Assembly (NCBI GenBank): GCA_017449025.1
Contig: JAFSKJ010000012.1
Location: 1-36,196, forward strand
Length of the DNA: 36,196 nt
Source: Prevotella sp.
GTDB taxonomy: Bacteria; Bacteroidota; Bacteroidia; Bacteroidales; Bacteroidaceae
Reading direction: 5' to 3'
Shown: positions 12,407 through 15,776 of the stretch, in pieces
Position numbering within the stretch: the first letter of the stretch is position 1
Layout: each line of letters starts with the position of its first letter
Translations under genes and position numbers: made by a program
The notes under the pieces: generated by a model
Database searches by the model: none
Seen by the model: the letters and a program-made list of their open reading frames with translations, nothing else
What the model was told of the DNA's origin: nothing

Positions 12407-13462
12407 TTATTTCACTTCCCAGATGTCGTTTGTCTCAAGAAGCTCGCTGAAGTTGTGGTACTTCTTCATGGCCGACACCTCGTCAATCTGTGCATACACG
12501 GCATCGTTGTAGGTGGGAGCCTCCACGTCGCGGATAACGCCGAGGGCGATGGGGAAGCCATCCTCGGGAGTCATCATTGCCAGCTTCAGCTGCAGGGTGT
12601 TGTCCTCGCAGTGGGCGTCGTGAACAAGCACGTCGTCGAGCGTATAGCCGTCCTTGCCAATCTCCACCACCTTTAGGCTGAAGCCCTGCTGCACGAGTCC
12701 GTACTCATTGTTCTCGCCGAAGACAAGCTTCTCGCCGTGGCGCACGTAGATGGCATTCTTCTTGCGGCCTTCGTTGTTATAAACCACGTCGTGACAGTGG
12801 TCGTTGAAGATGACGCAGTTCTGCAGCACCTCAGTGACACTGGCACCCTTATGCTTGTAGGCTGCCTGGAGCACCTCGACGGTGCCCTTGGCGTCGGTGG
12901 CCACACAGCGGGCGAAGAAATGTCCGCGGGCGCCGAAACAGAGCTCGGCAGGACGGAACGGGTCCTCGACGGTGCCGTATGGGCTCGACTTAGACACAAA
13001 GCCGCGGGGCGACGTGGGCGAGTACTGGCCTTTTGTCAGGCCGTAGATGCGATTGTTCAGCAGGATCATGTTCAAGTCGATGTTCCTGCGGTTGGCATGG
13101 ATGAAGTGGTTGCCGCCGATGGCCAGTCCGTCGCCGTCGCCGCTGACCTGCCAGACGGTGAGGTTGGGGTTAGCCACCTTGGCTCCGGTGGCTATGGCGG
13201 CGGCACGACCGTGGATGGTGTTCATGCCGTAGGTGGCCATGTAGTGGGGCAGACGGCTGGAACAGCCGATACCGCTGATGACTGCAATGTTCTCAGGGGC
13301 TACGCCAATCTCGGCCATAGCCTTATGGAGCGATGCCAGGAAGAAGTGGTCGCCACAACCGGGACACCAACGGGGCTGGCCTTTCTTGAAATCAGAAGCC
13401 CCCCACTGTCTCCCCCCTTGGGGGGAGGAATTATTAGTTTTTCTATTGATATTTGATTCCAT
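12407..13462 (-). CDS. korB: 2-oxoglutarate:ferredoxin oxidoreductase, beta subunit
   Basis: This 351-residue TPP-binding subunit pairs with KorA to convert 2-oxoglutarate and CoA to succinyl-CoA with reduction of ferredoxin (or the reverse reaction in anaerobes). Visible motifs are WCPGCGDHF (Cys33, Cys36), GIGCSSRLPHYM, and the TPP/Mg signature from GDGDGLAIGGNH (from residue 108) to LLNNRIYGLTKGQ (Asn136-Asn137). Homologues usually reach the FKKGQPRWCPGCG segment a few residues after the start. Here residues 11-23 come from a palindromic repeat, so the N-terminus has been rewritten. The gene is separated from korA by the DUF559 cassette, whose ORF ends 5 nt before this start. Identification is secure at family level; substrate is by similarity. 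Confidence 0.93.
   Translation of the reverse strand: MESNINRKTNNSSPQGGRQWGASDFKKGQPRWCPGCGDHFFLASLHKAMAEIGVAPENIAVISGIGCSSRLPHYMATYGMNTIHGRAAAIATGAKVANPNLTVWQVSGDGDGLAIGGNHFIHANRRNIDLNMILLNNRIYGLTKGQYSPTSPRGFVSKSSPYGTVEDPFRPAELCFGARGHFFARCVATDAKGTVEVLQAAYKHKGASVTEVLQNCVIFNDHCHDVVYNNEGRKKNAIYVRHGEKLVFGENNEYGLVQQGFSLKVVEIGKDGYTLDDVLVHDAHCEDNTLQLKLAMMTPEDGFPIALGVIRDVEAPTYNDAVYAQIDEVSAMKKYHNFSELLETNDIWEVK
13395..13431 (-). repeat. Terminal inverted repeat of DUF559 cassette, korB side
   Basis: This 37-bp element is itself a hairpin: CTCCCCCC-TT-GGGGGGAG is a perfect 8-bp stem. Its complement aligns along its length with 13857-13894: ATTCCTCCCCC, AAGGGGG, AG, then a G-rich arm ending CT. It encodes residues 11-23 of KorB. 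Confidence 0.85.
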
Positions 13463-13467
13463 AATTC

Positions 13468-13842
13468 CTATTCTAAATAGTGTTTTATTGTTTCTAATAC
13501 GTTGTCAATATTTCCTGTTACCTCTTCGTTTGTAAATCTGATGACTGTGAATCCTTGAGCCTCCAACCATTGTTGTCGTTGTTCGTCGCTGTCCTGCTGT
13601 TCCGGCAACTGGTGGTAACCTCCGTCCAGTTCAATAATCAGTCTTGAAGGCATGCAGACAAAATCTGCAATGTAGTCGCCTATGATATGCTGTCTTCTAA
13701 AAGGCTGTCTAAGTTGCCGTTCTTTAAGACAATCCCACAATAGGCTTTCTGCCTCGGTAGGATTCTTTCTGTTTTCTTTGGCAAACTTTTTTAGCAAGTC
13801 ATACCAGCAAGGATCAGCCGTCTTAAATTCAAAGTCATTCAT
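13468..13842 (-). CDS. DUF559 (Vsr-like) endonuclease-domain protein
   Basis: This 124-residue protein belongs to the DUF559 group, distant relatives of the very-short-patch-repair endonuclease with a PD-(D/E)XK-type fold. Seen directly: NPTEAESLLWDCLKERQL near residues 27-44 (conserved Glu30/Glu32), FRRQHIIGDYIADFVC (Asp60), the IIELDGGYHQ motif (Glu71, Asp73, His77), and the closing GFTVIRFTNEEV. All expected acidic residues are present, so it is probably catalytically intact. Length is typical for the family. It lies between inverted palindromes and between korA and korB, and has no metabolic relation to either. The role of these small proteins is not established; a link to the flanking repeats is my inference. 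Confidence 0.9.
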   Translation of the reverse strand: MNDFEFKTADPCWYDLLKKFAKENRKNPTEAESLLWDCLKERQLRQPFRRQHIIGDYIADFVCMPSRLIIELDGGYHQLPEQQDSDEQRQQWLEAQGFTVIRFTNEEVTGNIDNVLETIKHYLE

Positions 13843-13854
13843 CAGCAGAGGTAT

Positions 13855-15717
13855 CTATTCCTCCCCCAAGGGGGAGGTCAGGAGGGGGCTGAAGGCTTTG
13901 ACAAGATCAGCAACTTGGAATGGCTGGCCTTTCACTTCGTTGTATTGGTAGGGAACGAAGTTGTCTACCTTCATGCGGAGGTAGGCGGCAAGCTGACCCA
14001 TGTTCTGCTCTGCCACCACCACCTTCTTGTACTTCTTCAGCACTTCGGCGGTGTTCTTGGGCAGCGGGTTCAGGTACTTGAAGTGAGCCTGTGCCACCTT
14101 GTAGCCCTTCGCACGGAGTTCGTCCATAGCCGAGTGCAGATGTCCGTAAGTAGAACCGAAGCCCACGATGAGCAGGTCGGCATCGTCGACGTCGCCGCTG
14201 ACTTCGAGGTCGGGAACCTGTATGTTGGCTATCTTCTGCTGGCGCAGGCGCGTCATCAGGTCGTGGTTCTCAGGATTGGTGGAGATGGCACCAGTCTGCG
14301 AGTCCTTCTCCAGTCCGCCAAGGATGTGGGCGAAGCCCTCACGGCCGGGCACTGCCCAGTAGCGGGTGCCGTTCTCGGCGCGCATGTAGGGTGTCCACTT
14401 GCCCTTCAGCTCCTCTGGCACATAGGGTGGGTTGATGGGGTCGAGCTTGTCCATCTCGGGCAGCTTGAAGGCACCAGAGCCGTTGGCCACGAAAGCGTCG
14501 GTGAGCAGCACCACAGGAGTCATGTGTTCAAGAGCTATCTTGCAAGCCTGATAGGCTGCGTCGAAGCAGTCGGTGGGACTGGTGGCAGCCATCACCGGCA
14601 TCGGACTCTCACCGTTGCGGCCGAAGAGCGCCTGCAGCAGGTCGGTCTGCTCCGACTTGGTGGGAAGACCGGTGGCAGGGCCGCCACGCTGTACGTCGAG
14701 CACCACGAGCGGCAGCTCCATAATGACGGCGAGGTTCATGGCCTCCGACTTCAGGCAGATGCCGGGGCCGGAGGTCGAGGTGACACCGAGGGCACCGGCG
14801 AATGAAGCGCCGAGGGCCGACGAGCAGCCGGCAATCTCGTCTTCGCACTGCACGGTAATGACACCGCACGACTTGTGCTTCGACAGCTCGTGGAGCACGT
14901 CGGTGGCGGGGGTGATGGGGTAGCTGCCGAGGTAGAGCTTCAGGCCAGCCTTCTCGGCTGCAGCTATGAAGCCGTAGGCTGTGGCCTTGTTGCCCGTGAT
15001 GTCCATGTAGCGTCCCGGCTCCTTCACCTTCGACTCTATGCGATAGACGTTCACCGTCGACGAGTGGGTGTTGTGTCCATAGTCCCAACCGGCCTGAATC
15101 ACCTTGATATTAGCCTCGGCAATGGCGGGCTTCTTGGCGAACTTGTCGCGCAGGAAGTTGTTCACCAACTCCAGGTCGCGGTCAAAGAGCCAGCAGACGA
15201 GTCCCAGTGCGAACATGTTGCGACACTTCATCATGGCCTTCATGTCCATGCCTGAGTCTGCCAGACAGTCCTTCACCATCGTGGTCAGCGGGCACTGGAT
15301 GACGCGGTCGGGGTCAATGCCCATCTCGCCAAGGTAATCCTCGCTCTTGAACTGCGCCTTCTCCAGGTCCTTCGGCCCGAAGGAGTCGGTATCGATGATG
15401 ATGGTAGCACCGGGCTTGGCATAGCGATACTGCGTTTTCAGGGCGGCTGCGTTCATAGCCACAAGCACGTCGCACTTGTCTCCCGGAGTGTACACCTTGC
15501 CTGCACCGATGTGCACCTGGAATCCGGAGACACCCGTCAGCGAGCCTTGCGGGGCGCGGATGTCAGCGGGATAGTCGGGGAATGTAGAGATGCCGTTACC
15601 AACGGTGGCACTAACCGTAGAAAAGATGTTTCCGGCCAACTGCATGCCGTCGCCGGAGTCACCTGAGAAGCGGACAACAACCTGTTCCAGCTCCTTCACT
15701 TCCAATTTTTCTGCCAT
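13855..15717 (-). CDS. korA: 2-oxoglutarate:ferredoxin oxidoreductase, fused gamma/alpha subunit
   Basis: This 620-residue protein has an N-terminal gamma domain (VVVRFSGDSGDGMQLAGNIF, near residues 13-32) and then the alpha/pyrimidine-binding domain. The alpha domain has the LGSYPITPATD motif, typical of KorA-type enzymes, and the QCEDEIAGCSSALGASFAGA block. It works with KorB as an oxygen-sensitive ferredoxin-linked enzyme of central metabolism. I chose the ATG at 15717 (MAEKLEV); an in-frame TTG seven codons upstream is less likely. The last 13 residues are encoded by a palindromic repeat, which also brings the stop codon, so the native C-terminus has been replaced or extended. A TAATTTTGC promoter element lies upstream. 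Confidence 0.93.
   Translation of the reverse strand: MAEKLEVKELEQVVVRFSGDSGDGMQLAGNIFSTVSATVGNGISTFPDYPADIRAPQGSLTGVSGFQVHIGAGKVYTPGDKCDVLVAMNAAALKTQYRYAKPGATIIIDTDSFGPKDLEKAQFKSEDYLGEMGIDPDRVIQCPLTTMVKDCLADSGMDMKAMMKCRNMFALGLVCWLFDRDLELVNNFLRDKFAKKPAIAEANIKVIQAGWDYGHNTHSSTVNVYRIESKVKEPGRYMDITGNKATAYGFIAAAEKAGLKLYLGSYPITPATDVLHELSKHKSCGVITVQCEDEIAGCSSALGASFAGALGVTSTSGPGICLKSEAMNLAVIMELPLVVLDVQRGGPATGLPTKSEQTDLLQALFGRNGESPMPVMAATSPTDCFDAAYQACKIALEHMTPVVLLTDAFVANGSGAFKLPEMDKLDPINPPYVPEELKGKWTPYMRAENGTRYWAVPGREGFAHILGGLEKDSQTGAISTNPENHDLMTRLRQQKIANIQVPDLEVSGDVDDADLLIVGFGSTYGHLHSAMDELRAKGYKVAQAHFKYLNPLPKNTAEVLKKYKKVVVAEQNMGQLAAYLRMKVDNFVPYQYNEVKGQPFQVADLVKAFSPLLTSPLGEE
13857..13894 (+). repeat. 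Terminal inverted repeat of DUF559 cassette, korA side
   Basis: This 38-bp element has a perfect CCTCCCCC-AA-GGGGGAGG hairpin core followed by a G-rich arm. It is inverted relative to 13395-13431. It encodes the final KorA residues (608-620, ending PLLTSPLGEE) and abuts the korA stop. Confidence 0.85.
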
Positions 15718-15776
15718 AAGTATATTGTTTGATATCAATTAATATCGCTGAGATAACATATCTGCGCTTATCGGCT

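Follow-up and report, generated by a model that had tools for sequence, protein, structure and literature searches.

A DUF559 nuclease gene between palindromic ends at a Prevotella korA-korB junction: a probable minimal mobile element of Bacteroidota

Why does a nuclease gene, packed between inverted palindromes, separate two subunit genes that are normally adjacent? The question is raised by positions 1 to 36,196 of contig JAFSKJ010000012.1 of a Prevotella sp. genome (GenBank assembly GCA_017449025.1), the whole of which stretch is referred to here as the window. A cassette carrying a gene of the DUF559 family lies between korA and korB, in an operon of energy metabolism and in the same orientation as both genes. 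The combination of DUF559 gene and palindromic ends recurs at many loci, the two ends mostly match in type, and end type follows the relatedness of the nuclease. We consider it probable that the cassette is an autonomous member of a minimal mobile element family of Bacteroidota, in which a Vsr-fold nuclease would act on its own ends. The parts of the cassette are the following.

13397..13890, minus strand: whole palindrome-ended cassette, 494 nt, bounded by the inverted arms and by comparison with the short junctions of relatives
13468..13842, minus strand: DUF559 nuclease gene encoding 124 aa without an internal stop
13856..13890, minus strand: korA-proximal end, consisting of head AGCCCCCTCCTGACC, hairpin TCCCCCTTGGGGGA and GGAAT
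13397..13431, plus strand: korB-proximal end, inverted, consisting of head AGCCCCCCACTGTC, hairpin TCCCCCCTTGGGGGGA and GGAAT
13411..13426: hairpin core TCCCCCCTTGGGGGGA, 7-bp stem, 2-nt loop
13862..13875: hairpin core TCCCCCAAGGGGGA, stem reaching 8 bp at 13860-13877, 2-nt loop

In both arms, a head of the AGCCCCC type leads into a G/C hairpin with perfect pairing. Read inwards, they are AGCCCCCCACTGTCTCCCCCCTTGGGGGGAGGAAT and AGCCCCCTCCTGACCTCCCCCTTGGGGGAGGAAT, with 29 identical positions over 34-35 nt (~83-85% alike). An earlier note on this DNA had described an intact 124-aa DUF559 gene between 37-38-bp inverted repeats, each with a perfect hairpin at its core; the intact gene, the inverted arms and the perfect stems were all found, and the arms proved slightly shorter and less alike than described. 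The open reading frame (ORF) belongs to DUF559, as it matches PF04480 with E=1.1e-35 and 122.2 bits (curated cut-off 20.6). The hairpin cores are only mildly unusual within the window alone: the core pattern CTCCCCCNNGGGGGAG has its sole exact match at 13861 and, with 3 mismatches allowed, 5 matches versus 1.92 expected, a count that 4 of 100 shuffles reach. The end-to-end alignment score of the window's own cassette is 15, under the median of 23.5 obtained for 110 DUF559 loci. Terminators were rejected as an identity for the palindromes, given that no T-run was seen on the gene strand, judged by eye with no terminator scan run.

The nuclease and its hairpins form a recurrent unit. We assembled 190 DUF559 loci, comprising the window, 80 loci from named genomes (the best 80 of 237 encoding a relative) and a further 29 and 80 loci; these are not fully independent, since they hold 184 distinct protein stretches and the same genome sometimes occurs in two collections. 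C-rich/G-rich hairpins of at least 6 bp within 260 nt of the DUF559 gene are present on both sides in 145 loci, on one side in 28 and on neither in 17. Control segments taken 540-800 nt away have hairpins on both sides in none of 180 loci, and 17 of 360 sides matched. Hairpin type is equal at the two ends in 109 of the 145 loci (shuffled mean 20.9, maximum 34), and local alignment of one end with the other scores at least 18 in 79/110 loci, compared with 5.5% of 1500 cross-locus pairs. DUF559 genes are co-oriented with their neighbours in 148/182 loci. They occupy 89 different flank pairs, a number that is too high, antisense frames having split some of the sites; orientation and site counts use the longest frame on either strand, with some genes mislabelled. 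At locus L053, the DUF559 gene lies between near-identical 60-nt inverted repeats (59/60) of a different sequence, which have only a short C-rich head in common with the others. Searches of the open-licence PMC literature listed no paper tying DUF559 to palindromic or inverted repeats; "DUF559" and "palindrom" occur together in an Aliivibrio quorum-sensing/CRISPR paper and a cancer NAD review, judged by their listing.

The DUF559 protein matches the homing endonuclease I-Bth0305I by sequence and fold, and Vsr by fold. An alignment of 74 sequences contains 14 invariant residues, among which D60, E71, D73 and H77 are conserved candidates for the active site. (The alignment comprises the window and 73 of the 80 named-genome loci, leaving out the duplicates L006 and L045, the sequences with internal stops L032, L035, L076 and L084, and L058.) The structural match and these residues assign the protein to the Vsr/EDxHD homing endonuclease fold. 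The cassette protein has a single domain; the matched part of I-Bth0305I corresponds to residues 167-259 of a longer protein.

End type and nuclease are coupled. Along the nuclease tree, 108 rows are labelled for hairpin type, which changes 26 times (shuffled mean 65.6), and 115 rows for downstream gene, likewise with 26 changes (shuffled 80.2); the 76 rows labelled for both show 14 changes of type and 21 of site. Nucleases found at different sites share the same type in 40/42 pairs at 70% identity or more, in 140/316 pairs at 60-69% and in 574/4613 pairs at 40-59%. Several types may coexist in one genome; for instance, G117 holds T3, T4, T1 and T1. End type is therefore a property of the element and not merely a genome-wide habit.

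Palindrome load likewise tracks DUF559 across relatives, in both presence and copy number. A set of 150 genomes of the genus, many of them incomplete (the genome of the window is 80.65% complete), was searched for three palindrome patterns, and backward-pattern controls gave zero or a few matches. Strong DUF559 matches (E<1e-15) occur in 79 genomes and none in 63, with 8 genomes having weak matches set aside. Carriers have a median of 25 palindromes per genome versus 1 in non-carriers (p=2.5e-14). Because each element adds its own two ends, counts were repeated after subtracting two per DUF559 copy, which gave medians of 20 and 1 (p=4e-10). The correlation with DUF559 copy number (rho 0.69, or 0.50 in carriers alone) is 0.58 and 0.44, respectively, after the same subtraction. 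Some types are also enriched where their nuclease is present. G6-type palindromes number at least two in 6/7 genomes with a G6-type DUF559 versus 5/57 others (p=4e-5), and at least three in 5/7 versus 3/57 (p=1e-4), the G6 labels of G023, G059 and G140 having been added by hand from their korA-korB loci. T4 palindromes have a median of 31 in genomes with a T4-type DUF559 and 12 in those without (p=0.001). In a rank regression on palindrome load, t values are 8.4 for DUF559, 3.8 for GxxExxY genes and 1.5 for the Y1 transposase, and the DUF559 effect persists within both Y1-positive and Y1-negative genomes.

Palindromes also occur away from any nuclease gene. In the genome of the window, TCCCCCN{1,5}GGGGGA is found in 50 copies versus 1 for the backward pattern. 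We read 46 of the 48 palindromes located outside the window (C132:495 and C133:15345 were left out), which fall into 32 clusters. Two or three exact palindromes lie within 120 nt of each other in 12 of these clusters, forming dispersed inverted doublets like the REPINs (doublets of repetitive extragenic palindromic, or REP, sequences). ORF-less copies, which the earlier note had proposed to count alongside those flanking DUF559, are thus numerous. The pairs at L004, L092, L098, L321 and L322 combine both end kinds flanking DUF559, and dispersed doublets of other types are present in other genomes. The genome of the window also holds 33 palindromes of another type (CCCCTCCC..GGGAGGGG), although this assembly, 81% complete, yielded a single DUF559 gene, which has the type of the window.

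Many of these insertions lie in frame within genes. Open frames of at least 300 aa contain 17 of the 32 clusters. Eight of these frames were named by Pfam, among them alaS (two inserts), a metH-like gene, GH43 and GH31 enzymes and a dicarboxylate symporter. A solved AlaRS aligns on either side of the first alaS insert. The same alaS loop carries palindrome pairs in 5 of 30 loci read, the window's genome included; they are of the window's type, of mixed T6/G6 type (two genomes) and of T4 type (two genomes). In other species, L345 and L365 have simple tandem peptide repeats (SENSEN.., REPRDS..) in this loop, which marks it as a generally insertion-tolerant spot. The nuclease gene itself lies within stop-to-stop frames longer than 200 aa in 53/190 loci, some of which may be chance read-through. 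Ten such frames are Pfam-named: DUF559 is in frame inside MetH, a helicase-like AAA protein, MetG, an ABC-F protein, LeuRS, a DegT aminotransferase and an epimerase, and it precedes Gmk, IspF and an amino-acid kinase in the remaining three. Flavobacterium MetH aligns with a solved methionine synthase up to query residue 410 (chain residue 757) and again from 552 (773), meaning that ~140 residues occupy the place of 15 in the solved chain.

The junction at which the window's cassette resides involves the following features. The names korA and korB come from the earlier note and are kept because Pfam finds the corresponding domain pair.

13855..15738, minus strand: korA-type 2-oxoacid:ferredoxin oxidoreductase alpha subunit; PF01855 (POR_N) E=9.8e-47, PF01558 (POR) E=7.7e-28
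12407..13462, minus strand: korB-type 2-oxoacid:ferredoxin oxidoreductase beta subunit; PF02775 (TPP_enzyme_C) E=1.1e-28
13855..13890, minus strand: cassette-encoded korA terminus, SPLLTSPLGEE-stop (last 11 codons and stop), from translation
13397..13462, minus strand: cassette-encoded korB start MESNINRKTNNSSPQGGRQWGA (first 22 codons), from translation

At many short junctions in relatives, korA ends in ..FEDILKK-stop and korB begins with MSYTAQDFKKGQP, and the insert appears to replace a few codons. Since korA stops inside one end of the unit and korB starts inside the unit and exits through the other end, both genes stay open. A korB match at 1e-70 was obtained in 129 of the 150 genomes. 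For the better-scoring of these matches the upstream DNA was read, giving 110 stretches, with a few genomes contributing two; the korB motif was found in 108. The junction is short (at most 182 nt between anchor motifs) in 66 of these 108 loci, in accordance with the earlier view that the two genes are normally adjacent and that the unit separates them. The other junctions carry DUF559 (4), GxxExxY (PF13366; 17), an S23/IVP four-helix protein (PF05635; 8) or a longer insert without a recognised ORF (11); in 2 the korA end lies beyond the stretch. Close relatives, in which the earlier note suggested looking for empty sites, thus have short or otherwise filled junctions, and none of the 14 loci nearest to the window by korB identity has DUF559 at this place. 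A comparison of flanks for a co-conversion tract shared with a donor lineage, which would be a sign of homing, gave no clear tract; korB identity of L007 is higher within 240 nt (0.80-0.92) than beyond (0.74-0.78), a signal that is doubtful.

All 29 ORF-bearing inserts run in the korA-korB direction. The GC fraction of their arms is 0.62-0.76 for DUF559 (4/4), 0.13-0.47 for GxxExxY (17/17) and 0.12-0.21 for S23/IVP (8/8), so the kind of inverted repeat differs from one ORF family to the next. The four DUF559 cassettes all have G/C inverted ends. Of the 11 ORF-less inserts, those of G044 and G128 keep DUF559-type palindromic ends and, judged by these ends, are probably relics of DUF559 units. 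GxxExxY (PD-(D/E)XK_3) genes, in cassettes bounded by A/T-rich inverted repeats (ACCACGAATTTAACGAATT is one example), share the junction used by DUF559, as do S23/IVP four-helix-bundle genes, members of the 23S rRNA intervening-sequence protein family, between TTAAGAGTTAAGAATTAAGA-type repeats.

GxxExxY junction loci: L130, L134, L141, L143, L144, L149, L157, L159, L161, L170, L182, L185, L189, L190, L192, L231, L232
S23/IVP junction loci: L136, L147, L187, L207, L210, L219, L220, L227

In the reading we favour, the element would consist of two inverted end modules, each made up of a C-rich, asymmetric head and a G/C hairpin, and of an enclosed gene for a single-domain Vsr-fold nuclease that would work with its own end type. 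The nuclease may nick or cut the ends as hairpin or cruciform DNA, after which host repair or replication would copy the unit into a new site; the cutting and the movement are what we infer, beside the observed association of nuclease and palindromes. Complete elements and ORF-less end pairs, the latter as REPIN-like miniatures, would thereby spread to new places in genomes, landing mostly between co-directional genes and also in frame inside proteins, as miniatures or with the nuclease. Such landings would be tolerated because translation of the ends gives an open linker rich in Pro, Gly and Ser, and because an end can provide a gene with its stop or its start. The earlier note had proposed a minimal mobile cassette without a transposase; a single recurrent unit with type-matched ends and no transposase inside it agrees with this proposal, and the genome has four Y1 matches elsewhere.

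Several observations weigh against this reading. A hairpin is undetected on one or both sides in 45/190 loci, and types are unequal in 36 of the 145 loci with two hairpins. For L018 and L020, named genomes with DUF559 at korA-korB, the flank that was read contains no hairpin towards korA, and the end-to-end score of L039 is as low as that of L020. DUF559 without the repeats, which the earlier note took as refuting if relatives always showed it at this locus, is not the rule, as the four same-genus cassettes illustrate. Repeats in genomes devoid of DUF559, its other counter-indication, also occur in part: 12 of the 63 non-carriers have at least 10 palindromes. Eleven of these 12 genomes are less than 90% complete, and one (G128) keeps the ORF-less palindrome-ended insert at korA-korB, which suggests that palindrome-rich non-carriers have lost the nuclease. 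Conversely, 8/79 carriers have fewer than 3 palindromes, and 11/79 have none after correction for their own ends. Palindromes of the window's own type, T6/7, are not significantly enriched (median 11 in 7 genomes versus 8 in 57, p=0.12). GxxExxY also correlates with palindromes, indicating that general mobile-element load contributes. A korA-tree pairing test (88 genomes, 82 usable) pointed in the direction of the favoured reading but found only 10 supported independent pairs, too few, at a threshold of 5, of which 5.2 differ in the same way and 0.7 in the opposite way (median p 0.125), and was weaker at thresholds of 10 and 20. In the window's genome, 20/32 clusters have a single exact palindrome only. 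By eye, no target duplication is seen at korA-korB or alaS. As single-stranded DNA, finally, the cassette ends fold no better than dinucleotide shuffles (z is -1.12 at one end, and the strands of the second end give -0.12 and 0.35), and for this reason the case is built on recurrence and not on energy.

The most serious alternative, which we regard as unlikely, is a homing element. As free-standing homing endonucleases do, the nuclease would cut the cassette-free allele of a conserved gene junction and recombination would copy the cassette in, the palindromes being incidental or protecting the site. The nuclease fold and the recurring sites fit such a process, which does not predict ORF-less copies at many unrelated places. 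The many flank pairs (89, over-counted as stated), the presence of similar nucleases at different sites and the absence of DUF559 from the 14 junctions nearest by korB also argue against it. Moreover, the cassette protein has a single domain, whereas the I-Bth0305I part that it matches belongs to a longer protein.

Alternatively, REP-like palindromes, or those of miniature inverted-repeat transposable elements, might be moved by a Y1 transposase (IS200-like or REP-associated tyrosine transposase, RAYT) or by a host factor, with DUF559 as captured cargo. Y1_Tnp matches are present in 88/150 genomes and, in the genome of the window, at four places on contigs other than that of the cassette.

G000:C87:37965-38306: Y1-transposase match
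C50:28737-29093: Y1-transposase match
C129:506-760: Y1-transposase match
C117:19657-19848: Y1-transposase match, below cut-off, with an internal stop

Cargo capture would suit the different ORF families found in inverted-repeat cassettes at one junction, and DUF559 carriers have more palindromes with Y1 than without (29 versus 13, p=0.016). However, Y1 adds little beside DUF559 and GxxExxY in the regression (t 1.5 against 8.4 for DUF559), 16 DUF559-positive genomes without a Y1 match, some of them incomplete, hold at least 10 palindromes, and capture leaves the coupling of end type to nuclease similarity unexplained. We hold this passenger role to be improbable. The Y1 transposase was rejected as the true mover, its association being weaker and those 16 genomes lacking a match.

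An explanation at the RNA level, modelled on intervening sequences (IVS), is improbable to a similar degree. The inverted ends would pair in the transcript and RNase III would remove or isolate the insert, so that it would do no harm in operons; the substrate of DUF559 might then be RNA or a DNA copy. Copies lying in frame within one protein do not fit this, as excision from the mRNA would lose the protein, and each cassette end is a palindrome by itself, a property not required of IVS ends. The co-orientation with neighbours (148/182 loci, and 29/29 ORF cassettes at korA-korB) and the cassettes of the IVS protein family S23/IVP at the same junction are in its favour. That DUF559 is a domesticated Vsr-like repair or regulatory gene, with palindromes serving as local transcription or mRNA-stability signals, is very unlikely: the Caulobacter DUF559 protein VsrA is described as Vsr-like in a passage of PMC12907096, but domestication requires vertical inheritance with conserved neighbours, and the many flank pairs, the patchy presence (79 strong matches in 150 genomes), the in-frame insertions in unrelated genes and the DUF559-free junctions of close relatives argue otherwise.

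REP/REPIN systems with RAYT (Y1 HUH) enzymes have ends consisting of an asymmetric tag and a hairpin, arranged in inverted pairs and dispersed as ORF-less doublets; one enzyme gene lies between cognate ends, and enzyme and ends co-vary. DUF559 units share the head and hairpin ends, the inverted pairs, the ORF-less doublets, the single enzyme gene and the enzyme-end co-variation, so that, as far as genome evidence goes, the likeness in concept to REP/RAYT, with an unrelated protein, put forward in the earlier note largely holds. In contrast, the gene between the ends is DUF559, a Vsr-fold PD-(D/E)XK nuclease and not an HUH/Y1 transposase, and insertions are found within coding sequence, where they keep the frame, as well as between the genes of operons. 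PMC3733652 defines the REP tag next to the hairpin as GTAG or CGTC; the cassette ends begin with AGCCCCC.. and have no such tag adjoining the hairpin.

Rickettsia palindromic elements (RPE), described in a passage of the same paper, lie in frame within functional genes. DUF559-type elements resemble RPE in this trait, going by description, and differ in having a nuclease-bearing version and in belonging to another phylum. The unit shares with I-Bth0305I and the EDxHD/Vsr-like homing endonucleases the catalytic fold, sequence relation and location within conserved host genes. It differs in its single domain, palindromic ends, many sites and ORF-less derivatives, and no intron or intein was seen. 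Neither the Vsr very-short-patch-repair endonuclease nor VsrA of Caulobacter is regarded as a palindrome-ended unit; both are taken to be repair proteins of the host. Bacterial IVS are, according to the abstract of PMC4990558, located in 23S rRNA and excised by RNase III. Their resemblance lies in a short ORF between inverted repeats and in the S23 family found at korA-korB in 8/108 loci; the cassette differs in lying between protein genes and in its ORF, and the S23/IVP repeats at korA-korB are A/T-rich.

A broader reading is offered more tentatively, as a possibility we would not yet bet on. Bacteroidota may harbour a whole class of selfish cassettes, each reduced to inverted-repeat ends and one small ORF and all competing for the same operon junctions and protein loops: DUF559 has G/C palindromes, whereas the A/T-rich repeats of GxxExxY differ from those of S23/IVP. 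In the DUF559 branch, a 120-aa Vsr-fold nuclease would by itself replace a transposase and also drive in-frame palindromic miniatures. If so, DUF559 would be the first candidate enzyme for in-frame palindromic elements of the Rickettsia type. The working principle may be familiar from palindromic mobile elements; the enzyme and the tolerance inside proteins are not. Should the favoured reading of the cassette as an autonomous mobile element be correct, the common and little-understood DUF559 family would gain a role as mover of palindromic elements, and a non-HUH counterpart would be added to the REP/RAYT systems. The mover of in-frame palindromic elements would become a testable question, involving a 120-residue enzyme and a 35-nt end, and the odd Pro/Gly-rich linkers or the inserted nuclease domain present in some essential proteins of these bacteria would be explained.

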